Below, in pieces: positions 46,288 through 63,373 of a DNA stretch of 64,000 nucleotides. Numbering within the stretch: the first letter of the stretch is position 1; every line of letters starts with the position of its first letter. The position numbers and the translations under genes were made by a program. The notes under the pieces were generated by a model. That model searched no databases. It was not told the DNA's origin and saw nothing but the letters and a program-made list of their open reading frames with translations. The DNA is from Devosia sp. YIM 151766 (GTDB lineage Bacteria; Pseudomonadota; Alphaproteobacteria; Rhizobiales; Devosiaceae), in assembly GCF_030285925.1 (NCBI RefSeq), contig NZ_CP127251.1:2170001-2234000 (forward strand), given 5' to 3'.

Positions 46288-46476
46288 CTCATGTGAGCCG
46301 GCTGAGCATGTCGAAGGCGGCCACTGGGTCTCCGACCTCGTCCTTCGACAAGCTCAGGATGAGGTCTATGAGAGATGGCCTCCACCCATATCCGCTCGTC
46401 ACCCTCGCGCTTGACGCAAGGGGGCTGTGTTGTGGGCGCTACCGCAAGAGCCCCCGCGTCGAGCGCGCGGGTAACG
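46288..46476. repeat. REP cluster between tamB and epmB
   Basis: The 264-base gap holds an inverted GTCGAA/TTCGAC-type pair (46288-46324 and 46337-46374, the latter CCTTCGACAAGCTCAGGATG plus AGGTCTATGAGAG). It also holds an imperfect CCCTCGCG-type pair (46395-46422 and 46444-46476). tamB (+) and epmB (-) converge here, so the hairpins may also stop transcription. No gene is supported. Confidence 0.75.
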
Positions 46477-46490
46477 ATCCGAGAGGGTGT

Positions 46491-49384: not shown

Positions 49385-49438
49385 ATTGCGCTCGCGCTTC
49401 GCGCGGTCCGGCGCGATCAGTCCAAACCACGCTCGTCA

Positions 49439-49467
49439 CCCTCGCGCTCGACGCGAGGGTTCTTTTT
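49439..49467 (+). terminator. Terminator after efp, made from a REP-like hairpin
   Basis: CCCTCGCG (49439-49446), a 5-base loop, CGCGAGGG (49452-49459), then TTCTTTTTT. The stem is a unit of the CCCTCGCG REP family; the T-run turns it into an intrinsic terminator 55 bases after the efp stop. Confidence 0.8.
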
Positions 49468-49492
49468 TCTGAATCCGTCGCAAGCTCCGGCC

Positions 49493-51294: not shown

Positions 51295-52272
51295 CTAGCT
51301 CTTCTCGGTCACCTTTTCTCCCGGTGCCGAGGCCGCAAAGATCAACCGCTGCAACACGATGAACAGGAACAGCAGCACACCGATGACGATTTTGGTCCAC
51401 CAGCTGGACAATGTCCCGTCAAAAATAATGTAGGTCTGCACCAATCCGAGCAACATGACCCCGATAAAGGTGCCGAGCACGAAGCCATAACCGCCGGTGA
51501 GCAGCGTTCCCCCGATGACGACCGCGCTGATCGCGTCGAGCTCGACGCCCAGCGCCGCCAGCGGATAGCCGGCCGAAGTATAAAGCGAAAAGACGATTCC
51601 CGCCAAGGCGGCCAGCACGCTGGACAGCATATAGACGCTGATCGTGGTGCGGGCCACCGGCACCCCCATCAGCGACGCCGAGACCGGATTGCCGCCCAGC
51701 GCATAGACATAGGAGCCGAATTTGGTGCGGTGCGCCAAAAGCGCCCCGACGATGAAGACGGCGACCATGCTCAACCCGATGAAACTCAGCCGCCCGCCGC
51801 CCGGCAGGCGGATCATGACGCTGGAAATCCAGCTGTAGAATTCATGATTGATGGGCACCGAATCCTGGGTGATGACCGAGGCGCCGCCCCGCGCCAGGAA
51901 CATGCCGGCCAGGGTGACGATGAAGGACGGCACTTGCAGGAAATGCACCGCCATCCCCATGACGCCGCCGAAAATGGCCGCCACCAGCAGCGCGACGGCG
52001 AAGGCCGACAGGGGATGAAAACCGGCCCACGAGATCAGCACCGCGACGAGCACGCCGGTGAACCCGATCACCGCCCCGACCGAGAGATCGATGCCCCCCG
52101 ACAGGATCACGAAGGTCATGCCGACGGCGGCGATGCCCAGAAACGCATTGTCGGTGAGGAAATTGCCCAATACCCGCGTCGAGAACATGCCGGGAAACTG
52201 CATGACGCTCAGCGAATAGGCGATGATGAAGATCACCGCCGTGGCCAAAAGGGGGCGCAGGGAACGGCTCAT
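51295..52272 (-). CDS. yjfF: Sugar ABC transporter permease YjfF
   Basis: 325 residues, about nine membrane spans, BPD_transp_2 family. GGIDLSVGAVIGFTGVL and GVPVARTTISVYMLSS, and GGTLLTGGYGFVLGT near the end, match the YjfF/RbsC group. Start overlaps the ytfT stop by 4 bases. With the YtfT-like permease it forms the channel. Confidence 0.87.
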   Translation of the reverse strand: MSRSLRPLLATAVIFIIAYSLSVMQFPGMFSTRVLGNFLTDNAFLGIAAVGMTFVILSGGIDLSVGAVIGFTGVLVAVLISWAGFHPLSAFAVALLVAAIFGGVMGMAVHFLQVPSFIVTLAGMFLARGGASVITQDSVPINHEFYSWISSVMIRLPGGGRLSFIGLSMVAVFIVGALLAHRTKFGSYVYALGGNPVSASLMGVPVARTTISVYMLSSVLAALAGIVFSLYTSAGYPLAALGVELDAISAVVIGGTLLTGGYGFVLGTFIGVMLLGLVQTYIIFDGTLSSWWTKIVIGVLLFLFIVLQRLIFAASAPGEKVTEKS

Positions 52273-53273
52273 TTGTCAGCCTCCTGGACCACGGGGCGCA
52301 ACCGGGCCGGGAACAGCTTCCCCGCCAGCGGCGATTGGATGATCAGGACGAGGAAAATCAGCCCCGCCTTGACGATGAGGTTGAATTCCGGCCGGAAGCC
52401 CGAGACCAGGATGCCGGTATTCATCGCCTGGATGATGATGGCGCCGATCACCGCCAGCGGCACCGAGAAGCGCCCGCCCAGCAGCGAAGTGCCGCCGATG
52501 ACCACCGCGAGAATGGCGTCGAGCTCCAGCCACAGCCCGGCATTATTGGCGTCGGCGCCGCGGATGTCCCCGGCGACGATGATGCCCGCCACCGCCGCGC
52601 AGAGACCGGACAGTCCATAGACCAGCATCAGCAGCATGCGACTGCTGATGCCGGCAAGGCTCGCCGCCGCCCGATTGACGCCCACCGCCTCGATGAACAG
52701 CCCGATGGCCGTTCGCCGCACCAGCAGCGTCACCAGGATCAACAGCGCGATGGCGATCACCACCGCCATGGGCAGGCCGAGAAACGACCCCGTGCCAATG
52801 AAGATCAGCACCGGATCGTTGAAGGTGACGATGAAACCCTGGGTGATGAGCTGGGCAATGCCGCGTCCCGCCACCATCAGCACCAGCGTGGCGACGATTG
52901 GCTGGATATCGAGTACTGCCACCAGGAAGCCGTTCCACAAGCCGCAGAGCAGGCCCACACTGAGAGCGGCGGCGACGGCGACCGGCGCCGGGTAGCCGGC
53001 CACCACCATGGTCGCCGCCACCGCCCCGGCCATGGCCATGACAGCGCCGACCGACAGGTCCACCCCCTTGGTGGCGATGACCCCGACCATGCCGATGGCC
53101 AGGATCGCCACCGGCGCCCCGCGATTGAGCACGTCGATCAGGCTGCCGAACAGGCGACCGTCCTGGATGGTGATGCGGAAGAAATTGGGAAACAATATCC
53201 AGTTGATCAACAGCACGCCGGCCAGCGCCAGCAATTGCGGATTGGCCAGCCGGGTCAGAATGCGCCGCGTCAT
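52269..53273 (-). CDS. ytfT: Sugar ABC transporter permease YtfT
   Basis: 334 residues, membrane protein of the same family. GVDLSVGAVMAMAGAVAAT and GGTSLLGGRFSVPLAVIGA are the paired permease signatures. Overlaps neighbours at both ends by 4 bases, so the four transporter genes are tightly coupled. Confidence 0.87.
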   Translation of the reverse strand: MTRRILTRLANPQLLALAGVLLINWILFPNFFRITIQDGRLFGSLIDVLNRGAPVAILAIGMVGVIATKGVDLSVGAVMAMAGAVAATMVVAGYPAPVAVAAALSVGLLCGLWNGFLVAVLDIQPIVATLVLMVAGRGIAQLITQGFIVTFNDPVLIFIGTGSFLGLPMAVVIAIALLILVTLLVRRTAIGLFIEAVGVNRAAASLAGISSRMLLMLVYGLSGLCAAVAGIIVAGDIRGADANNAGLWLELDAILAVVIGGTSLLGGRFSVPLAVIGAIIIQAMNTGILVSGFRPEFNLIVKAGLIFLVLIIQSPLAGKLFPARLRPVVQEADK

Positions 53274-54784
53274 GAAGCGGGACCCTCGTGATGATTGGCG
53301 ATCGCCTGCACGATGACGCCGGGATTGATATCCTTGCCGGAAAGCTCGGCGACCAATTCGCGGTCGCGCATCACCACGATGCGCGAGGAATAGGCGACGA
53401 CTTCATCGAGTTCGGAGGAAATGACCACCAGCGCCAGCCCCTCGTCGCGCAGGCGATTGATGGTGCGCACGATTTCGGCATGCGCGCCCACATCGATGCC
53501 GCGCGTCGGCTCGTCGAGAATGAGGAAGATCGGGTCCGTCGCCAGCCAGCGCGACAGGATCACCTTCTGCTGGTTGCCGCCGGACAGCAGCTTGACCGGC
53601 ATGTCGAGCGAGGCGGCGCGGATATCCATGGCCTCGCCGAACCGGCCGGCAATGTCCATCTGCTCGTCGCGATTGAGGGCGCTGAACCAGCCCAGCTTGC
53701 CCTGCAAGGCGATGATGATGTTCTCGCGCACGGACAGATCGCCGAGAATTCCCTCGGCCTTACGGTCCTCCGGGCAGAAGCCGAAGCCGCGGGAAATGGC
53801 GTCGCCGGGCCGGGCCAGGGCGATGGGCCGCCCATCCATATGCACCTCGCCCTCATCGGCGGCGTCGGCGCCGAACATGATGCGGGCCATTTCGGTGCGG
53901 CCCGAGCCGAGCAGCCCGGCCACGCCGACCACCTCGCCCTTGTGGATGGTCAGGTCGAACGGATGCACGCTGCGCTTGCGGCCATAGGATTTGAAGTCCA
54001 GCAGCACCTCGCCCACCGGCCGCGCGTCCTGAAGCCCCGTCGCGCCGGAAAAGGCCACGTCCTTGCCCAGCATCAGCCGCACCACATCGGTGCGGGTCAT
54101 GTCGTCCAGCGCCCGCGTCTCCACCAGCTTGCCATTGCGCAGGATGGTCACGCGGTCGGCCAGCGCGAAGACCTGTTCGAGGAAATGGGTGATGAAGATG
54201 ATGGCGAGGCCTTTGGCCCTGAGATCGCGGATGATCTCGAACAGGCGCTCGACCTCGTTGCGGTCGAGGCTGGCCGTCGGCTCGTCGAGAATGAGCACCT
54301 TGCCCGACAATTCCACCGCCCGGGCAATGGCGATGATCTGCTGCACCGCCACCGAATGGGCCCCCAATTCGCTGGCCGGATCGATGGCGAGCCCGTAGCG
54401 CTGAAGGACATCGCGCGATTCCCGCTCCATCCGGCGCCGGTCGACCAGCCCGAATCTTGTCGGCTGGTGGCCGAGAAACAGGTTCTCCGCCACCGACCTG
54501 TTGGGCACCAGGTTCACTTCCTGATAGACGGTGCCGATGCCGTGCTTCTGCGCCTGTTGCGGATTGTCGAGGCTGACCGGCGCGCCACCGGCCAGCACCG
54601 TGCCGCCATCGGGCTGATAGGCCCCGGTGAGAATCTTGATCAGGGTGGACTTGCCGGCGCCGTTCTCGCCGAGCAGGGCATGGATTTCTCCGGCCCGCAG
54701 ACCGAAATTGATATTGTCGAGCGCCACATGATTGCCGAAGACCTTGATGATCCCGCGCGCTTCCAGCGCATAATCTGCGCCCAT
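53270..54784 (-). CDS. ytfR: Sugar ABC transporter ATPase YtfR
   Basis: 504 residues, two ABC domains. The first has Walker A GENGAGKS (39-46); the second has the degenerate loop VAGLLGSGRTEMA and signature LSGGNQQKVILSRWL usual for sugar importers of the RbsA/MglA class. In E. coli the related system takes up galactofuranose; the sugar here is not proven. Confidence 0.9.
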   Translation of the reverse strand: MGADYALEARGIIKVFGNHVALDNINFGLRAGEIHALLGENGAGKSTLIKILTGAYQPDGGTVLAGGAPVSLDNPQQAQKHGIGTVYQEVNLVPNRSVAENLFLGHQPTRFGLVDRRRMERESRDVLQRYGLAIDPASELGAHSVAVQQIIAIARAVELSGKVLILDEPTASLDRNEVERLFEIIRDLRAKGLAIIFITHFLEQVFALADRVTILRNGKLVETRALDDMTRTDVVRLMLGKDVAFSGATGLQDARPVGEVLLDFKSYGRKRSVHPFDLTIHKGEVVGVAGLLGSGRTEMARIMFGADAADEGEVHMDGRPIALARPGDAISRGFGFCPEDRKAEGILGDLSVRENIIIALQGKLGWFSALNRDEQMDIAGRFGEAMDIRAASLDMPVKLLSGGNQQKVILSRWLATDPIFLILDEPTRGIDVGAHAEIVRTINRLRDEGLALVVISSELDEVVAYSSRIVVMRDRELVAELSGKDINPGVIVQAIANHHEGPAS

Positions 54785-54825
54785 TATCCCTCCCTGCCGG
54801 TTCGCACCGGTCTATCGCCTGGCAT

Positions 54826-54850
54826 TCCCTCCCCCTCAAGGGGGAGGGAG
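54826..54850. repeat. REP-like palindrome (CCCTCAAGGGGGAGG type)
   Basis: CTCCCCCTCAAGGGGGAGGG lies in the ytfQ-ytfR gap. The family recurs as a pair at 58203-58340 and singly at 63194-63217. Within the operon it may lower the amount of downstream message relative to the binding protein. Confidence 0.7.
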
Positions 54851-54875
54851 GCCATTCACTTGCATGGCGATCTTA

Positions 54876-55847
54876 TCAATATCCGAGGCCCTTGCGGCGC
54901 TCATATTCGCCGGACGGATCGTCGGCTGCAGTATAGAGCTTGGACTCGGTGATGATGAACTTCTCGGGCTCGGTGCCATCGGCCCAATAGGCGGCCAGGG
55001 CGTCGAAGGCCGGGCCGGCCATGTTCGGCGTCAATTCCACCGTGGCATTGGCCTCGCCGGCCGCGATGGCGGTGAAGATGTCCGGCACGGCGTCGATGGA
55101 GAGCACGAGGATATCGGTGCCCGGCTTGAGGCCGGCATCGCGGATCGCCTGAATGGCGCCCACCGCCATATCGTCATTATGCGCATAGACCGCGCAGAGA
55201 TCGGCACCGCCATTTTCCGCCTTGAGGAAGCCCTCCATGACTTCCTTGCCCTTGGAGCGGGTGAAGTCGCCGGTCTGGCTGCGCACGATGGAGATATTGT
55301 CGGCGCCGGCAATGGCTTCTTCGAAGCCCTTCTTGCGGTTGATGGCCGGGCTGGAGCCGACCGTGCCCTGCAATTCGACCACTTTGCACTCATCCGCGCC
55401 GACATTGTTCACCAGCCATTCGCCGGCTGCCCGGCCTTCCAGCACCTGGTCCGACATCACGGCGGTCATATAGAGGTCTTCCGGCGCCTCGATGCCGCGG
55501 TCGAGCAGCAGCACCGGAATTTCCGCTTCCTTGGCCTCGCCGAGCACTTCGTCCCAGCCGGTCTCGACCACCGGGGCGATGAGAATGGCGTCGACACCCT
55601 GGGCGATGAAGCCGCGAATGGCCTTGATCTGGTTTTCCTGCTTCTGCTGAGCGTCGGCGAATTTGAGGTCGACGCCGCGCGCTTCGGCTTCCTGGCGGGT
55701 CACCGAGGTTTCGGCGGCGCGCCAGCCCGATTCCGAGCCGATCTGCGAAAAACCCACCACCTTGCCGGAAATATCCTGGGCCAGGGCGGCGGAAGACAAG
55801 GCAGTAGCGAGGCTCGCCGCGAGGGCGAGCTTGGTCATGATGCTCAC
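54876..55847 (-). CDS. ytfQ: Periplasmic sugar-binding protein YtfQ
   Basis: 323 residues from GTG 55847, six bases after GGAGGA; an ATG three codons later is the alternative. A signal peptide ends in AALAQ. VVGFSQIGSESGWRAAET, then DAQQKQENQIKAIRGFIAQG and LLLDRGI, are YtfQ-type SBP family motifs for furanose sugars. First gene of the ytfQRT-yjfF-gntR operon. Confidence 0.9.
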   Translation of the reverse strand: MSIMTKLALAASLATALSSAALAQDISGKVVGFSQIGSESGWRAAETSVTRQEAEARGVDLKFADAQQKQENQIKAIRGFIAQGVDAILIAPVVETGWDEVLGEAKEAEIPVLLLDRGIEAPEDLYMTAVMSDQVLEGRAAGEWLVNNVGADECKVVELQGTVGSSPAINRKKGFEEAIAGADNISIVRSQTGDFTRSKGKEVMEGFLKAENGGADLCAVYAHNDDMAVGAIQAIRDAGLKPGTDILVLSIDAVPDIFTAIAAGEANATVELTPNMAGPAFDALAAYWADGTEPEKFIITESKLYTAADDPSGEYERRKGLGY

Positions 55848-55903
55848 GATGGATCCTCCCAAAAGCCGTCCGGCGTTTCTCGCCTCGGACGGTCAGAGGA
55901 CGC

Positions 55904-56022: not shown

Positions 56023-56976
56023 TCAGTTCCGTCCCACCGTCCGCCGGTAATGCTCCAGCACCCTGGCGCTGTCGACGCCGGTGCAGATCGTCTGGCTCGG
56101 CCGTCCGGCCCAGAGGGGATGGCCGCCCTTGCGGCTTTCCGGCATCTGCGCCGTCTGCCCCACGGCCAGGCCCTCGCGAATGACCACCACCGGCCCGCGC
56201 CGCGTTTCGAACCATTCGGGATGCAGCGCATAGGTCACCGCCAGCAGATCGTGCCCGACCACGCCGGACAGGCCCATGACCTCATTGTAGAACCTGGCAT
56301 AATGCCCGCACATCTGGCGCAGCAATTCGCCATTGGCGCCGGCCTCGTCGGCGAGGACCGCAAGATATTCTGTGTCGAGGATGATATCGTGGGTCACGTC
56401 CAGCCCCACCGCCACGACCGGCCATTCCGCCGCGAATATCTCGTCCGCCGCCACCGGATCGCCATGGATATTGGCCTCGGCCAGCGGGGTGACATTGCCA
56501 CTGCGCCCCTGATAGCCGAAGGCGCCGCCCATGATGACGACCTGCTTGGCCAGCCCGGCCACGTCCGGAGCCTCGCGCAGCGCCAGCGCCAGATTGGTCA
56601 TGCGTCCCACCGCGATGATGGTCACCTCGCCCGGATGCGCCCTGAGCGTGTCGATGATGAAGCGGCTGGCCGCGCCCGGCTGCAAACCGGTTTCATCCAC
56701 GGCCGGAATGACGATATCGCCCAGCCCGTTATGACCATGCACGATCGCCGGCTCGGCCTTGACGACGCCATCCAGCGTCTGCCCCGCCCCGGCTATAACC
56801 GGCGCGGTGAGGCCGAATTGCTGGCGCAGGAACAGCGCATTGCGCGTCACCGCGGCGATATCGGCATTGCCCACCACGCTGGTAATGCCCAGCAGTTCGA
56901 TTTCCGGCAGCTTGCTGAGATAGAGCAGCGCCATGGCATCGTCGATGCCGGGATCGGTGTCAAAAATGACTTTCAT
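56023..56976 (-). CDS. Inosine/uridine-preferring nucleoside hydrolase family protein
   Basis: 317 residues. The calcium site motif FDTDPGIDDAMALL gives D6, D8, D12 and D13; the C-terminal VGLDVTHDII also matches. These enzymes cut the N-glycosidic bond of nucleosides to give ribose and base. It lies upstream of the ytf operon on the same strand but is separated by a terminator, and it is divergent from fgd. A link to uptake of ribose-like furanose sugars is possible. Confidence 0.9.
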   Translation of the reverse strand: MKVIFDTDPGIDDAMALLYLSKLPEIELLGITSVVGNADIAAVTRNALFLRQQFGLTAPVIAGAGQTLDGVVKAEPAIVHGHNGLGDIVIPAVDETGLQPGAASRFIIDTLRAHPGEVTIIAVGRMTNLALALREAPDVAGLAKQVVIMGGAFGYQGRSGNVTPLAEANIHGDPVAADEIFAAEWPVVAVGLDVTHDIILDTEYLAVLADEAGANGELLRQMCGHYARFYNEVMGLSGVVGHDLLAVTYALHPEWFETRRGPVVVIREGLAVGQTAQMPESRKGGHPLWAGRPSQTICTGVDSARVLEHYRRTVGRN

Positions 56977-57069: not shown

Positions 57070-57093
57070 TTTTTTGACCAAACGATCAAAAAA
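57070..57093. promoter_or_regulatory. Palindromic operator upstream of fgd
   Basis: TTTGACCAAACGATCAAA (57073-57090) lies in longer TTTTTTGA...TCAAAAAA arms (57070-57093). The reverse complement differs from the site at 62104-62121 at only two central bases. It ends 33 bases before the fgd ATG. The form suits a TetR-type dimer; no such regulator is in the window. Confidence 0.7.
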
Positions 57094-57123
57094 ATAAACC
57101 GTCGACGCTCGGGAGGGAAAACC

Positions 57124-58125
57124 ATGCGGTTCGGCTATAAGGCATCGTCAGAGCAATTCGGCCCCAACGACCTCCTGCGCTTCGCGGTTGAGGCCGAACA
57201 GGCCGGCTTCGATTCCGTTTTCGTCTCCGACCATTTCCAGCCCTGGAAGCACACCGACGGCCACGCGCCTTTCGCGCCGGGCTGGATGTCGGCGGTCCTG
57301 GCCCGCACCGAAAAGATCGTCCTCGGCACTTCGGTGCTGACGCCGACCTTCCGCCTGCATCCCACCGTGACCGCCCACGCCTTCGGCACCATGGGCGCCA
57401 TGTTTCCCGGCCGCGTCATCCTCGGCGTCGGCACCGGCGAATCGCTCAACGAAGTGCCCGCCACCGGCATGGCCTGGCCCGAGCTCAAGGAGCGCTCCGC
57501 CCGCCTGCGCGAAGCGGTCAAGCTCATCCGCCAGCTCTGGCGCGAGGATCGTGTCTCCTTCGAGGGTGAATATTACCGGACCGTCAACGCCACCATCTAC
57601 GACAAGCCCGCCGAGCCCGTGCCGATCTACATCGCCGCCGGCGGCCCGCTCAATGCCAGATATGCCGGCCGCGCCGGCGATGGCTTCATCTGCACCTCCG
57701 GCAAGGGCGCCGAACTCTATACCGAGCAATTGCTGCCCAATGTCGAAGCCGGGCGCGCCGAAAGCGAACTGGCCGGCAAGCCTTTCGAGCGCATGATCGA
57801 GGTGAAGGTCTCCTTCGACACCGATCCCGACCGCGCCCTAGAGGACACCCGCAACTGGGCCGCCCTCTCCCTTTCCGCCGAGGAAAAGCATTCGGTGCAG
57901 GACCCCGAGGAAATGGAACGCCTCGCCGAGGCCCTGCCCATCGAGCGCGTCGCCAAGCGCTGGATCGTCTCCTCCGACCCCGACGAGCATGTCGCGGCCA
58001 TCCAGACCTATATCGACTATGGCTTCGACCACCTGGTCTTCCACGCCCCCGGAACCGATCAGAGCCGGTTTATCGGGCTTTACGCCAAGGAGATCTTGCC
58101 ACGGCTGAAGAAATCGGTGGGGTGA
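57124..58125 (+). CDS. fgd: F420-dependent glucose-6-phosphate dehydrogenase
   Basis: 333 residues, clearly the mycobacterial Fgd1 type. [45 protein letters not shown] and LVFHAPG follow that enzyme closely. The residues reported as catalytic in M. tuberculosis Fgd1 (E13, H40, W44, E109) correspond to E10, H37, W41 and E106. The lysines and arginine reported to bind the phosphate lie in conserved segments TSGKG, EEKHS and AKRWI. It oxidises glucose-6-phosphate and reduces F420. ATG 57124 has GGGAGG upstream. First of a six-gene F420 cassette. Confidence 0.93.
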
Positions 58126-58202
58126 AAATGCACAAACATCCTCCCTTGCAAACGAATGCATATTTCGCGCATTCCAAGGCTGGCTTTAAGCGGCACGACA
58201 GG

Positions 58203-58340
58203 CTCCTTCGCCCCCTCCCCCTTGAGGGGAGGGCCGGGGTGGGGGTGCTGCGGTTTCTACATAATCGGCAGTTTCGCCGTTGCTCCGACACCCCCATTCT
58301 CGATCCCTCCCCTCAAGGGGGAGGGAGGCGCAGGAGCCTC
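58203..58340. repeat. Inverted REP pair (CCCTCAAGGGGGAGG type) between fgd and cofE
   Basis: CCCCTCCCCCTTGAGGGGAG with GGGGTGGGGGTGCTG faces a reversed copy ending CCTCCCCTCAAGGGGGAGGG. Between them are about 40 unique bases. It fills most of the 220-base gap. The cofE ribosome site (AGGAG) directly follows the second copy. Confidence 0.8.
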
Positions 58341-58345
58341 CAGCC

Positions 58346-59158
58346 ATGATTCCCCGTCTCGCCGTCTGGGGCATTCCCGGCCTGCCCGAAATCGCTGCCG
58401 GTGACGATCTCGTCGCCCTGATTGCTACCGCCATCCAGGCGCAGGCCGCCGCCGATCCCGACCTTACCCTCCGATCCGGCGACATCCTCGTCATCACCTC
58501 CAAGATCGTCAGCAAATCCGAGGGCATGCAGGTGCCCGCCGCCGAGCGCGAACAGGCCATCGCCGCCGATACGGTGCGCGTCGTCGCCGAACGCGTGCAT
58601 CCCGGCGGCACCTTCCGTATCGTCGAGACCCGCCAGGGCCTGGTCATGGCCGCCGCCGGCATCGACATGTCCAATGTCCCCGAAGGCATGGCCCTGCGCC
58701 TGCCCGCCGATCCCGACGCCTCGGCCCGTGCCCTCTGCGCCGGCCTGCGGGACAAGCTCGGCGTCGATATCGGCCTCATCATCACCGACACGATCGGCCG
58801 GGCCTGGCGCGTCGGCCAGACCGACATGGCCATCGGCGCCGCCGGCCTGCAATTGACCGACGATCTGCGCGGCGCCGACGACGCCAATGGCCGGCCCCTG
58901 CACGTCACCCAGGCGGTGATCGCCGACGAGATCGCCGGCGCCGCCGATCTGGTCAAGGGCAAGACCACCGGCATTCCCGTCGCCGTGGTGCGCGGCCTCG
59001 CCCGCTTCGTCCGCGATCTCGACGCTCCCGGCGCCCGCAGCCTCACCCGCACCGGCGACGACGACATGTTCCGCTTCGGCAGCGCCGAGGCCTATCGCCT
59101 CGGCTACGAAGCGGCGCTGGCGGAGATGAAGAACAAGACCAGGCAGCGTCAGGAATGA
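58346..59158 (+). CDS. cofE: Coenzyme F420-0:L-glutamate ligase
   Basis: 270 residues. [16 protein letters not shown] (45-60), GIDMSNV (105-111), [18 protein letters not shown] (147-164) and [16 protein letters not shown] are the CofE/FbiB-N hallmarks. The enzyme adds glutamates to F420-0 with GTP and metal ions. The nitroreductase-like C-terminal domain of mycobacterial FbiB is absent, so this is the stand-alone form. It is the only F420 biosynthesis gene seen; cofC, cofD and fbiC are not in the window. Confidence 0.93.
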
Positions 59159-59207
59159 TGATGCGCGCACCAAGATGGTTACCAACCGCATTTGCCCAGA
59201 GAAACGG

Positions 59208-59235
59208 AGGTTCCCGCTTTCGCGGCAATGACACC
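59208..59235. repeat. Single REP unit (GTCATTCCCGC type) before the binding protein gene
   Basis: GGTTCCCGCTTTCGCGGCAA with TGACACC lies directly before the ATG at 59236. It is translated in the longer frame from 59155 (NGGSRFRGNDT), which shows that frame start is not genuine. Confidence 0.7.
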
Positions 59236-60162
59236 ATGCGCATGGCCATGTTGGGCGCGCTTCTGGCGCTCGCTCTCCCCGCCCAGGCCGCCACCACCTA
59301 TCCCCTGACGCTCGACAATTGCGGCGTCGCCGTCACCTTTCCCGCCGCCCCCCGGCGCGTCGTCACCATCAAATCCACCGCCACCGAATTGCTGCTCTCG
59401 CTCGGCCTGGGCGATAATATCGTCGGTGTGGGTTTCCAGGATGGCCCCCTGCCCGAGCACCTCGCTACCGACCTGCCAGTGCTTTCCGAAAAGCTGCCCA
59501 GCCAGGAAGTCGCGCTCGAAGCCGAGCCCGATTTCATCTATGGCGGCTGGGAGAGCAATTTCGCCGCCGATGGCGCGGGCGAGCGCTCCACGCTGGCGCG
59601 TTTGGGCGTCGCCACCTATGTCGCCCCCCCCGCCTGCCGCAGCGTCCAGCCGCCCAGGCTGACCTTCGAGGCCCTGTTCGCCGAGATCGCCGAAATGGGC
59701 CGGATTTTCGACATCGAGGACACCGCCAATGCCCTCATCGCCGAACAGCAGGCCGTGCTCGACGACATCGACGCCGACCGGCGCGGCCTCACCGCCCTCT
59801 GGTATTCCTCCGGCATCAAGACGCCCTATGTCGGCGCCGGCAACAATGCCCCCGCCATGATCATGCAGGCTTTGGGCCTCGCCAATATCTATGCCGATGT
59901 CGACGATGGCTGGACCTCGGCCAGTTGGGAGGCCATTGTCGACGCCAATCCCGACATCATCGTGCTGGTCGACGCCGTCTGGAATTCGGCCGAACAGAAA
60001 AAGCTTCTGCTGGCCGAAAATCCCATCACCAGCCAATTGGACGCGGTGATCCACCAGCGCTACCTGATCATTCCGTTCCCGGCCGCCGAAGCCGGCATAC
60101 GCAACGTCCCGGCCACTGCCGACATGGCGGCGCAATTGGCGAGGCTGGATTTCGCGGAATGA
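59236..60162 (+). CDS. Putative F420-0 ABC transporter, binding protein
   Basis: 308 residues with a signal peptide (LGALLALALPAQA, cut near residue 18) and no lipobox cysteine. It is a FecB/BtuF-type helical-backbone binding protein (TIKSTATELLLSLGLGDNIV, ALEAEPDFIYGG). Its place between cofE and a FecCD permease and ATPase matches the three-gene cassette described in Actinobacteria that have cofE but lack the rest of F420 synthesis, for which uptake of F420-0 was proposed. An ordinary siderophore or cobamide importer cannot be fully excluded. ATG 59155 overlaps cofE but gives a REP-coded extension. Confidence 0.82.
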   Translation: MRMAMLGALLALALPAQAATTYPLTLDNCGVAVTFPAAPRRVVTIKSTATELLLSLGLGDNIVGVGFQDGPLPEHLATDLPVLSEKLPSQEVALEAEPDFIYGGWESNFAADGAGERSTLARLGVATYVAPPACRSVQPPRLTFEALFAEIAEMGRIFDIEDTANALIAEQQAVLDDIDADRRGLTALWYSSGIKTPYVGAGNNAPAMIMQALGLANIYADVDDGWTSASWEAIVDANPDIIVLVDAVWNSAEQKKLLLAENPITSQLDAVIHQRYLIIPFPAAEAGIRNVPATADMAAQLARLDFAE

Positions 60163-60220
60163 GCGGGCCCGCCCAATGAGCTTTGTCCATTTCGCGCCCG
60201 CTGCTGCCGTATTTTTTCTC

Positions 60221-60252
60221 GGTGTCACCCCCGCGCAAGCGGGAATGACGCC
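60221..60252. repeat. Single REP unit (GTCATTCCCGC type) before the permease gene
   Basis: GGTGTCACCCCCGCGCAAGC with GGGAATGACGCC. The preceding CCATTTCGCGC...TTTTTTCTC is shared with the copy at 32161. It lies in the 114-base gap between binding protein and permease. Confidence 0.7.
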
Positions 60253-60276
60253 GCGGCCAAGTCTGGCAACCTCGCC

Positions 60277-61278
60277 TTGAGCCGCCTCTCCCTCCCCGCC
60301 CTCGTCGTCCTGCTCGTCGTCAGCGCCACCGCCGCTGTCGCCTTCGGCCCGGCCGACATCACCCCGCAGGAGGTCTGGTCGGTCATTCTCCACCATCTTG
60401 GCCTCATTCCCGAAAGCCCGGTCTCCCGCCTGCGCGACGCCATTGTCTGGGAATTGCGCCTGCCCCGCGTCCTCACCGCCCTCGGCGTCGGCGCCGGCCT
60501 GGCTCTCGCCGGCACCATCATGCAGGCCCTGACCCGCAATCCCCTGGCCGATCCCTATCTGCTCGGCCTCTCCTCCGGCGCCGCGCTCGGCGCTGTGCTC
60601 TTTCTTCTCGGCGGCTTCGCCCTGCTCATGCCGCTCGGCGCCTTTCTCGGCAGCCTCGGCGCGCTGGCCCTGGCCCTGCTCATCGCCGGCCTGCTTGGCG
60701 GCGCCACGCCCTCCCGCGCCATTCTCGCTGGCATCTGCATTTCCGCCCTCGCCTCGGCCGCCACCTCCTATCTGATCTTCTGGTCGGCCACCGGCGATTC
60801 CTATCGCGAAATCCTCTCCTGGCTGATGGGCTCGCTCTCCGGCGCGGTCTGGTCCGATGCCGGCCTCGTCCTCGCCGCCCTGGCGCTCTGCGCCCCCGTC
60901 ATCCTCCTGTCCGGCCGGGCGCTCGACGCCTTCGCCTTCGGCGACAATGCCGCCGTCGCCCTCGGCATCGACGTGCCGCGGCTGCGCTGGACCCTGCTCG
61001 GCGCCACGGCTTTGCTCACCGGCATCATGGTGGCCATTGGCGGCGCCATCGGCTTTGTCGGCTTGGTCGTGCCCCATGCGGTGCGCCTCGCCACCGGCTC
61101 GCGCCACCGCCGATTGCTGCCCCATGCCATGCTGGTTGGCGCCATCTTCATGCTATGGACCGACACCGCTGCCCGCACCCTGTTCGATCCGCGCGAATTG
61201 CCCGTCGGCATCATCACCGCCCTGATCGGCGCGCCGGTCTTCCTCTTCGTCCTCCTGCGCTATCGGCGGATCACATGA
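60277..61278 (+). CDS. Putative F420-0 ABC transporter, permease (FecCD family)
   Basis: 333 residues, about nine or ten membrane spans. LRLPRVLTALGVGAGLALAG and MQALTRNPLADPYLLGLSSG are FecCD signatures; FVGLVVPHAVRLATG is the ATPase-docking stretch. The start is TTG 60277 and has only a weak ribosome site. Its stop overlaps the ATPase start by 4 bases. Confidence 0.85.
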   Translation: MSRLSLPALVVLLVVSATAAVAFGPADITPQEVWSVILHHLGLIPESPVSRLRDAIVWELRLPRVLTALGVGAGLALAGTIMQALTRNPLADPYLLGLSSGAALGAVLFLLGGFALLMPLGAFLGSLGALALALLIAGLLGGATPSRAILAGICISALASAATSYLIFWSATGDSYREILSWLMGSLSGAVWSDAGLVLAALALCAPVILLSGRALDAFAFGDNAAVALGIDVPRLRWTLLGATALLTGIMVAIGGAIGFVGLVVPHAVRLATGSRHRRLLPHAMLVGAIFMLWTDTAARTLFDPRELPVGIITALIGAPVFLFVLLRYRRIT

Positions 61279-62078
61279 GCCTCGATATCGACGATCTTTC
61301 CGTCGCCCGGGGCGGCAAAGCCATCCTCTCGGCCATTTCCTTCACCGCCCCGTCCGGTGCCGTGACCGGACTTATCGGCCCCAATGGCGCGGGAAAATCC
61401 ACCCTGCTGACCGCCCTGCTCGGGCTCGTCCTCTCGTCGGGCACGGCGCGCTTTGCCGGCGCCGACCTGCCCGGGATGAAGCGCCGCGACCGGGCGCGCC
61501 TGCTCGCCTATGTCGAGCAATCCGCCAATACCGAGGAACGCCTCACCGTCCGGGACGTGGTCGCCCTGGGCCGCATCCCGTTCCAATCGGCTTTTGCCAC
61601 AGCCGGCGCGCCGGAAGACCGGGCCATCATCGCCGCAGCGCTCGAGGATACCGGCATGGCGGCCTTTGCCCATCGCCGTTTCGACACCCTTTCCGGCGGC
61701 GAGCAGCAGCGGGTGCATATCGCCCGCGCCCTGGCCCAGCAGCCGCGCCTGCTCCTGCTCGACGAGCCCACCAGCCATCTCGACATCAGCGCCCAATTGC
61801 AATTGCTGGCCCTGCTGCGCCGCAAGGCCGCCGCCGGCACTATTGTGCTGCTGGCCCTGCACGACCTCAATCTCGCCGCCCGCTATTGCGATCATCTGCT
61901 GGTCCTGCATGCTGGCAGGCTCGCCGCCGCAGGCCCGCCCGCCGAAGTGCTGACGCCCGCCCTGCTGCGCCAGGTCTATGGCGTCCGCGCCCGCCTGCTG
62001 CCCGATCCCGCCTCCGGCCGCCCCCTGATCGTCTATGACGACGCCGCTGCCGCAACGTCTCCATACAATCCCGATTGA
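61275..62078 (+). CDS. Putative F420-0 ABC transporter, ATPase
   Basis: 267 residues. Walker A GPNGAGKS is at 35-42, signature LSGGEQQRVHIARAL and Walker B LLLLDEPTSHLDIS follow, as in the FecE/BtuD group. Coupled to the permease. Together with the binding protein it completes the importer placed between cofE and an F420-dependent oxidoreductase. Confidence 0.88.
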   Translation: MSLDIDDLSVARGGKAILSAISFTAPSGAVTGLIGPNGAGKSTLLTALLGLVLSSGTARFAGADLPGMKRRDRARLLAYVEQSANTEERLTVRDVVALGRIPFQSAFATAGAPEDRAIIAAALEDTGMAAFAHRRFDTLSGGEQQRVHIARALAQQPRLLLLDEPTSHLDISAQLQLLALLRRKAAAGTIVLLALHDLNLAARYCDHLLVLHAGRLAAAGPPAEVLTPALLRQVYGVRARLLPDPASGRPLIVYDDAAAATSPYNPD

Positions 62079-62100
62079 CAATCCAGCGCCAGCCGCCCAA

Positions 62101-62124
62101 AAATTTGATCGACTGGTCAAATTT
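62101..62124. promoter_or_regulatory. Palindromic operator upstream of the F420 oxidoreductase
   Basis: TTTGATCGACTGGTCAAA (62104-62121) in AAATTTGA...TCAAATTT arms. Sixteen of 18 positions match the reverse complement of the fgd site, and it ends 31 bases before the ATG, almost the same distance as at fgd. Confidence 0.7.
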
Positions 62125-62152
62125 CAGACCGACAAGGGAGCTTAGGGACATC

Positions 62153-63154
62153 ATGGAATTCGGGATCACCTTCAAGGGCTTCGTCGAAGCCGAGCGGGCG
62201 CGCTATCTGGTGCGCGCCGCCGAATATGCGGGCTTTTCCTATTGCTGGTTCTATGACAGCCACATTCTCTGGCGCGATTGCTACGCCGCCATCGCCATGT
62301 GCATGGAACACACCACCGATATGCGCTTCGGCCCGCTGGTGACCAATCCCGATGTGCGCGACTGGTCGGTCGCCGCCTCCATTTTCGGCTCGCTCTCCAA
62401 GCAGTCGGGCGGCCGCTTCGATCTCGCCGTGGGGCGCGGCGACAGTTCCATGCGCGTCATGGGCAAGAAGCCGGCCACCCTCAAGCGCGTCGCCGAATTC
62501 ATCGACAAGACCAAGGCCATGGTGCGCGGCGAGGAAGTCAGCTATGGCGACATCCCCGCCGCGGTGAAATTCCCCTGGGCCATCGGCCACGACATGCCCA
62601 GCTGGATCGCCGCCTATGGCCCGCTGGCGCTCAAGACCGCCGGCGAACACGCCGATGGCGTCGTCTTGCAGATCGCCGATCCGGGCCTGTGCAAATGGTT
62701 CACCGACCAATGTATCGAAGCCGGCAAGGCGGCGGGCAAGGACATGGCCAATTTCCGCTCCATGGCCGCCGCCCCCGCCTATTTCGGCGACAAGAAGCGC
62801 GCCATCGAACATGTGAAATGGTTCCCGGCCATGGTCGGCAACCACGTCGCCGACATCGTCGAGAAATACGGCGCCGACAGCGACAAGGTGCCCGCCAGCC
62901 TCACCTCCTATATCGAAAAGCGCCGCGGCTACGACTATTCCAAGCACGGCCAGGCCGATAATCCCTATCTCGACTTCATCACCGACGATGTGGTGGAAAG
63001 CTTCTGCGTGCTGGGCGAGCCCGACGAGCACATCGCCAAGGTCCGCGATCTCGAAGCCGCCGGCATCACCCAGTTCAACATCTATCTCGACTCGGGCGAC
63101 GAGGAAGAAGTCATCGCCAATTACGGCCGCCACGTGATCCCGGCATTTCGCTGA
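62153..63154 (+). CDS. F420-dependent oxidoreductase, CPS_4043 type
   Basis: 333 residues of the luciferase-like (Mer-related) superfamily. MEFGITFKGFVEAERARYLV, FYDSHILWRDCYAAIAMC, AVGRGDSSMRVMGKKPATLK and LGEPDEHIAKV fit the CPS_4043 group of predicted F420-dependent enzymes. Its substrate is unknown. Its own operator and a ribosome site (AGGGA) lie between it and the ATPase gene, so it can be regulated apart from the importer. It would use F420H2 made by Fgd. Confidence 0.8.
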   Translation: MEFGITFKGFVEAERARYLVRAAEYAGFSYCWFYDSHILWRDCYAAIAMCMEHTTDMRFGPLVTNPDVRDWSVAASIFGSLSKQSGGRFDLAVGRGDSSMRVMGKKPATLKRVAEFIDKTKAMVRGEEVSYGDIPAAVKFPWAIGHDMPSWIAAYGPLALKTAGEHADGVVLQIADPGLCKWFTDQCIEAGKAAGKDMANFRSMAAAPAYFGDKKRAIEHVKWFPAMVGNHVADIVEKYGADSDKVPASLTSYIEKRRGYDYSKHGQADNPYLDFITDDVVESFCVLGEPDEHIAKVRDLEAAGITQFNIYLDSGDEEEVIANYGRHVIPAFR

Positions 63155-63193
63155 GCACGGCCCGTCCCACCGGCAAAGCATCGGCTCCTGCAT

Positions 63194-63345
63194 TCCCCTC
63201 CCCCTTGAGGGGAGGGCATCGCATATGGACCGAGCGGCCATGAGCTTGGCCCGATCATCGCTCGTCACCCTCGCGCTCGACGCGAAGGTCCTTGTTTATG
63301 GAAGCTGCCGCAAGAGCCCTCGCGTCGAGCGCGAGGGTGACGAGC
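63194..63345. repeat. REP elements after the F420 cassette
   Basis: A CCCTCCCCCTTGAGGGGAGG-type unit (63194-63217) is followed by a CCCTCGCG-type inverted pair (63261-63291 and 63308-63345, ending GCGCGAGGGTGACGAGCC). The 219-base gap lies between convergent genes and shows no other gene. Confidence 0.8.
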
Positions 63346-63373
63346 CATAGACGATAGCCCTGGTCTTGAGGAC

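Follow-up and report, generated by a model that had tools for sequence, protein, structure and literature searches.

We analyzed a 64,000-nucleotide stretch of the Devosia sp. YIM 151766 genome (G000:C1:2170001-2234000, hereafter the window, whose numbering we use), in which six plus-strand genes lie together between 57124 and 63154: fgd, cofE, the three genes of a FecBCD-type importer and a gene for a luciferase-like oxidoreductase. The genome is a single contig of 3,292,759 bases, 99.46% complete; G labels below denote genomes and L labels loci. Proteins were assigned to families by their NCBIfam scores, in bits, relative to the cut-off of each model.

57124..58125, plus strand: fgd; TIGR03554, 503 bits (cut-off 420)
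58346..59158, plus strand: cofE, F420-0:L-glutamate ligase; TIGR01916, 222 bits (cut-off 180.65)
59236..60162, plus strand: periplasmic binding protein of a putative F420-0 importer; TIGR03868, 410.6 bits (cut-off 392.4)
60277..61278, plus strand: FecCD-type permease (TTG start, uncertain); TIGR03869, 438.5 bits (cut-off 437.35)
61275..62078, plus strand: importer ATPase; best match TIGR03873, 338.5 bits (cut-off 372.4)
62153..63154, plus strand: TIGR03842 luciferase-like (LLM) oxidoreductase; 488.6 bits (cut-off 295.45)

A first-pass annotation made from the sequence had placed these six genes here, and all are present there. Five of the six proteins exceed the cut-off of their named family, the exception being the ATPase. 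By inspection, the likely start codons are at 57124 (fgd), 58346 (cofE), 59236 (binding protein) and 62153 (oxidoreductase). Both enzymes expected to act on F420 itself look intact, as had been claimed. Fgd aligns with the solved structure 5LXE at 474 bits and keeps Lys194, Lys255 and Arg279, the equivalents of the Lys197, Lys258 and Arg282 that form the phosphate pocket in a passage on the Rhodococcus enzyme (PMC5352752); it further retains Asp36, His37, Trp41, Ser70-Val71 and Glu106. CofE shares with the archaeal enzyme the motifs AGID-SN, IITDT-GR and ADE and scores just 56 bits against the folate-type model TIGR04132 (cut-off 350). It consists of a single Pfam domain, F420_ligase, and lacks the FbiB C-terminal domain.

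Co-occurrence of the cassette genes and the search for F420 synthesis genes

The finding named beforehand as refuting F420 salvage, synthesis genes elsewhere in the genome, was looked for by profile search. At E 0.001, the models for cofD (PF01933), cofH (TIGR03551), cofC (TIGR03552) and cofG (TIGR03550) had no match in the one-contig genome, and each of them matched in 9 to 11 of 14 control genomes. We also searched for cofD in a family sample of 121 genomes, evenly drawn out of a larger group, and found it in none. CofE exceeded its cut-off in 58 of the 121. The TIGR03868 binding protein was found in the same 58, over cut-off in 57 and just below it in G022 (387.5 vs 392.4), and TIGR03842 again in the same genomes (58/58 with CofE, 0/63 without). 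Fgd passed its cut-off in 51 genomes, all of them among the 58. The seven other CofE genomes all belong to genus group g16; their best match to the Fgd model (208 to 223 bits) lies directly before cofE, the one that we scored reached 285 bits against TIGR03557 (cut-off 210), and the first phosphate-pocket lysine is missing from the three that we aligned. F420H2_quin_red, a Ddn-like reductase family, occurs in 26 genomes, all inside the 58, adjoining fgd in two of them (G083 and G097) and lying away from the cassette in the rest.

The cofE-binding protein-permease-ATPase block forms an unbroken run in the window and in 16/16 main cassettes read, with flanks that mostly differ. Across a class sample of 385 genomes, TIGR03868 at 1e-90 matched in our genome alone, and in an unrooted CofE tree, from which near-duplicate and short rows had been removed, the 48 Devosia-type rows fall on one side of a branch with a Shimodaira-Hasegawa-like approximate likelihood ratio test (SH-aLRT) value of 96.

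Because the synthesis genes were not found and the importer, CofE and an F420-type enzyme occur together, F420 is probably used in these bacteria and of outside origin. We therefore read the cassette as a putative F420 salvage-and-use unit, with a probability of roughly three in four, its ligand, transport direction and enzyme activities being predicted from sequence; the salvage interpretation of the first pass is strengthened accordingly, and at the genome level it appears well supported that a Gram-negative lineage salvages preformed F420. In the proposed scheme, other microbes would release F420-0, or a slightly longer form, which would reach the periplasm, probably through a porin; there the TIGR03868 protein would bind it for inward transport by the FecBCD-type importer. 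CofE would then trap the F420 by adding glutamates, and Fgd would reduce it at the expense of glucose-6-phosphate to F420H2, which the TIGR03842 enzyme would consume.

Several points weigh against this scheme. The permease barely exceeds the TIGR03869 cut-off and the ATPase falls below that of TIGR03873, so that two of the three proteins pass the thresholds that membership in the TIGR03868/03869/03873 set asks of all three; by its position and homology the system is importer-like, not a full member of the models. Our genome has no F420H2_quin_red match, which leaves the TIGR03842 enzyme as the only candidate F420H2 user beside the cassette. The association of F420H2_quin_red is also weaker within genus group g1 (p 0.0012 vs 1e-10 overall), and Fisher values of this kind, like the co-occurrence counts above, ignore shared ancestry and overstate the evidence.

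The sample also contains variants of the cassette. In the g16 loci L068, L069 and L070, a different F420-type oxidoreductase stands in the place of fgd before cofE. Second, divergent cofE-importer sets without an adjoining fgd occur at L062 (G101) and L064 (G060); L064 also has an npdG-like stretch (42%) and a Mer-like oxidoreductase, and G101 carries an additional fgd ~10 kb from its second set. At L066, in the 2.0 Mb genome G094, only fragments of cofE, the binding protein and the oxidoreductase are left, within ~475 bases, as in a decayed cassette.

A palindrome upstream of fgd and the oxidoreductase gene

Two operator-like palindromes lie in front of cassette genes.

57073..57090, no strand: operator-like 18-bp palindrome TTTGACCAAACGATCAAA, 51 to 34 bases before fgd
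62104..62121, no strand: second operator-like palindrome TTTGATCGACTGGTCAAA, 49 to 32 bases before the oxidoreductase gene

The second overlaps the end of a promoter-like match at 62075-62104. The pattern across relatives, TTTGAYCRNNYGRTCAAA, was first noticed as an identical stretch upstream of fgd in four genomes. At up to 2 mismatches the window contains only these two matches, both perfect, where 0.40 are expected; two or more arose in 4 of 100 shuffles. Our inspection of operators covered 18 cassette genomes as sequence contexts and 20 held-out ones, together 38 of the 58. The palindrome stands before fgd in 12/12 fgd-first context cassettes and before the oxidoreductase gene in 18/18 contexts, with 1 mismatch in a single case each. 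Four g16 contexts have a 2-mismatch copy before their first gene, and at L076 and L077, where the oxidoreductase gene has moved ahead of fgd, one copy is left, before the oxidoreductase gene. In 17 contexts we observed 28 matches, whereas forty scrambled palindromes averaged 0.075 and never exceeded 2. Among the held-out genomes, many of which are closely related to those used for pattern discovery, a perfect copy lies 38 to 64 bases before fgd in 15/15 fgd-first cassettes, and none precedes fgd in the five oxidoreductase-first cassettes.

Away from the main cassettes the palindrome is scarce. It is absent from the second set at L062, and L064 has a single 2-mismatch place away from genes. None was found at up to 3 mismatches at 23 F420H2_quin_red loci (L168 to L171 and L178 to L196, representing 23 of the 26 genomes), and L197, with the moved fgd of G023, has a 3-mismatch place only. 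The ~1.5 Mb of DNA in 80 actinobacterial TIGR03868 importer loci (L086 to L165), our comparison set, holds 11 places at 3 mismatches and none closer.

We take the consensus operator of RutR to be TTGACCA-NN-TGGTCAA, and by this standard the palindrome resembles a RutR-type operator. RutR of E. coli senses uracil and thymine. E. coli has sequences similar to the palindrome in front of carA (TTTGACCATTTGGTCCAC, 2 mismatches) and in the rutA-rutR interval (GTGGACTAAACGGTCAAA, 3 mismatches, a distance equalled by the 11 actinobacterial places); both promoters are presumably RutR targets. Unlike the E. coli regulon, the sites in the window would govern F420 salvage and an F420-type enzyme and not the Rut oxygenase. 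No RutR gene was located by tblastn in the loci searched; no whole-genome RutR search was made. We rejected FNR/HcpR as the reader of the palindrome, as the spacing of HcpR half-sites given in a passage of PMC545781 is two bases shorter.

Upstream, fgd shares a 147-nt divergent promoter gap, in which the first palindrome lies, with a nucleoside hydrolase gene that is a possible member of the same regulon; L067 and L080 have a similar neighbor (70% and 80%).

56023..56976, minus strand: nucleoside hydrolase (IU_nuc_hydro), divergent; PF01156, 269 bits

Adjoining it, at 51295-55862, inspection revealed ABC importer genes (two permeases, an ATPase and a binding protein), possibly a set for sugar or nucleoside uptake. 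A dispersed palindromic repeat with 38-base arms follows the cassette at 63257-63348 and has related copies at 46393-46480 and 49430-49471, and a shorter inverted repeat pair (58305-58338 and 63183-63216) brackets part of the cassette.

The last enzyme and a possible link to pyrimidines

The structural model of the TIGR03842 enzyme (mean predicted local distance difference test (pLDDT) score 82.8) has F420-dependent Mer enzymes as its best matches, and its first 13 structural matches are all F420-dependent enzymes. Mer itself (methylene-tetrahydropterin reductase) was rejected as the identity of the last gene: Glu6, the catalytic residue according to a passage of PMC11094777, is replaced by Thr6, and the score against NF002619 is 131 bits vs a cut-off of 276.

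Plasmids of Leisingera aquaemixtae and Paracoccus alcaliphilus carry complete F420 operons (cofG-cofH-cofD-cofC-cofE-npdG), each closed by a gene for a relative of the enzyme, 69 to 71% identical to that of the window. These operons likewise set the TIGR03842 gene beside cofE; they differ in carrying the synthesis genes and npdG, for an NADPH-dependent F420 reductase, whereas the window genome has Fgd and seems to import F420. Neither operon start has a palindrome copy at up to 2 mismatches, and a 3-mismatch place lies 87 bases before cofG in Paracoccus. On the Sinorhizobium meliloti symbiosis plasmid pSymA (L200), npdG and cofE are annotated, and tblastn found cofD-, cofG- and cofH-like stretches.

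The Leisingera TIGR03842 gene is followed by a gene for a RutR-family regulator (PF08362, 147 bits; TIGR03613, 198 bits, under the cut-off of 368). Upstream of this operon the opposite strand encodes, at most 15 kb from the TIGR03842 gene, a nucleobase symporter, a dihydropyrimidinase (TIGR02033, 614 bits, cut-off 393), a carbamoylase-type hydrolase and an omega-aminotransferase. Paracoccus has no annotated dihydropyrimidinase within 15 kb. In the actinobacterial set, 34 of the 80 importer loci have a TIGR03842-type gene, and a dihydropyrimidinase gene lies within 400 bases of it in 34/34. In Compostimonas (L092), for instance, an amidase (TIGR03381, 245 bits, under 410), a dihydropyrimidinase (568 bits, over 393), a TIGR03842 protein (595 bits, over 295) and an aminotransferase are encoded in one run beside the importer, cofD and cofE.

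Since the reduction of uracil or thymine is the step absent from such gene sets, we propose that TIGR03842 supplies it, and the neighborhoods suggest that the last enzyme is an F420H2-dependent pyrimidine reductase. Reductive pyrimidine degradation runs through dihydropyrimidine dehydrogenase, dihydropyrimidinase and ureidopropionase. The actinobacterial TIGR03842 genes resemble this pathway in standing beside dihydropyrimidinase, and depart from it in that an F420H2-dependent first enzyme would replace the usual NADPH-dependent one. That the Devosia enzyme itself reduces uracil or thymine under a RutR-like regulator is a tentative idea, to which we give somewhat less than even odds. More tentative still is the general form, in which TIGR03842 proteins would be F420H2-dependent uracil/thymine reductases replacing dihydropyrimidine dehydrogenase, Devosia-type bacteria would import the cofactor for this purpose, and a RutR-like pyrimidine sensor would switch the whole path from import to use.

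Beside the cassette itself, the divergent nucleoside hydrolase gene fits a pyrimidine role. Other findings count against one. Leisingera dihydropyrimidinase, carbamoylase, NCS1, aminotransferase and RutR-like queries had no tblastn match in the window, which ends ~850 bases past the cassette, or in the Devosia-type loci searched. Vibrio, Pseudomonas and Reinekea have named relatives of the enzyme at 70 to 72% identity, and TIGR03842 is a model of the hypoth_equivalog type. The enzyme might thus use flavin mononucleotide (FMN) instead of F420, or act outside pyrimidine metabolism. We consider this unlikely, if a serious contender, given that TIGR03842 occurs in the same genomes of the family sample as CofE and closes two complete F420 operons, that the nearest structures are all F420-dependent, and that dihydropyrimidinase adjoins it throughout the actinobacterial loci that have it.

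Cargo of the importer

The AlphaFold2 model of the binding protein (mean pLDDT 91.3) is best matched by 4MLZ from Jonesia denitrificans (TM-score 0.91, root-mean-square deviation 1.4, 49% identity), which is its closest structure in sequence and fold alike. We take Jonesia denitrificans to be among the organisms of the first F420-0 uptake proposal. The nearest named homologues are from Devosia and Pelagibacterium, and Devosia binding proteins already appear as putative F420-0 transporter proteins in public records. Our genome has cofE and no match to the earlier F420 synthesis genes, which is presumably the criterion in the family description of TIGR03868-type importers. None of the literature matches listed dealt with an F420-0 transporter or with Devosia using F420. 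By word search, a 2021 F420 review (PMC8498797) has no wording on uptake, salvage, auxotrophy or uracil; its single ABC transporter passage concerns possible export, and it reports Fgd in predicted alphaproteobacterial F420 producers.

The first-pass annotation had likened the cassette to sets in Actinobacteria that lack the rest of F420 synthesis. The likeness holds for the genes: the 80 actinobacterial loci share all three importer components, with binding proteins 51 to 62% identical by tblastn; cofE is present in 51 of them and fgd in 22, up to 10 kb away. A cofD homologue lies inside 54 of the 80 loci, again up to 10 kb away; the one that we scored reached 336 bits against TIGR01819 (cut-off 257). 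In these loci cofE and fgd are on the opposite strand, whereas the Devosia-type set is compact, plus-strand and Gram-negative, without cofD in its family sample and with a palindrome that is unmatched there at up to 2 mismatches.

The actinobacterial cofD counts against F420-0 as the general cargo, because FO could be imported at those loci, and it weakens the F420-0 label of the family. FO has also been found in culture supernatants of one producer, according to a passage of PMC11104420. For Devosia, FO import would call for unrecognised, non-homologous enzymes that convert FO to F420-0, which we find improbable. In the established pathway, CofE requires a phospholactyl group, added by CofC and CofD. 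With no cofD in the family sample, and no cofC match in our genome, FO would be useless to CofE, and the cargo is more likely F420-0 or a longer F420. This F420 should moreover be the reduced, mature form, since CofE lacks the FbiB C-terminal domain, which is thought to reduce dehydro-F420-0 (a passage of PMC7253369).

An outer membrane route had been thought necessary as well, a need that proves smaller than stated. General porins have a size limit of roughly 600 Da; by formula, F420-0 has a mass of 515 Da, below this limit, and F420-1 of 644 Da. A TonB-dependent F420 receptor was rejected as a candidate, the sole TonB-dependent receptor found in the genome being of the haem family.

Improbable too, in our estimate, is that the importer serves another ligand, such as a siderophore, haem or a cobamide, and that F420 enters otherwise. 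The fold is indeed shared with haem, siderophore and related binding proteins, and the genome has a second, BtuFCD-like importer (G000:C1:2546520-2547377; L061:8368-11197) whose binding protein is 36% identical to that of the cassette and scores 264 bits against TIGR03868. This second importer lies behind a cobalamin riboswitch (L061:7424-7631, 126 bits), whereas the window has no Rfam match at gathering score. It is probably a B12 importer, so that B12 has its own route, and B12 was judged a less likely cargo of the cassette for this reason. The importer and CofE, in contrast, share the same 58 genomes and are contiguous in the window, the 16 main cassettes and L062, and ~3 kb apart in L064. 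That the cassette is decaying and no longer has a function, like the fragments in G094, is hardly credible given its six intact frames, conserved operators and ratios of nonsynonymous to synonymous substitution rates (dN/dS) of 0.04 to 0.27 for all six genes against three relatives, well below 1 as under purifying selection.

The importer-cofE set as a kind is already named by annotation models; what we find new is the compact arrangement of six genes with an operator of their own, as well as the possible pyrimidine link. If this interpretation is true, the TIGR03842 enzymes, a large orphan family, would gain a likely role, and the clean operator would offer a handle on the regulator. F420 salvage would become testable in ordinary laboratory bacteria. 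F420 would then be a traded vitamin, like B12, for which about half of the sampled family genomes (58/121) would rely on their neighbors.

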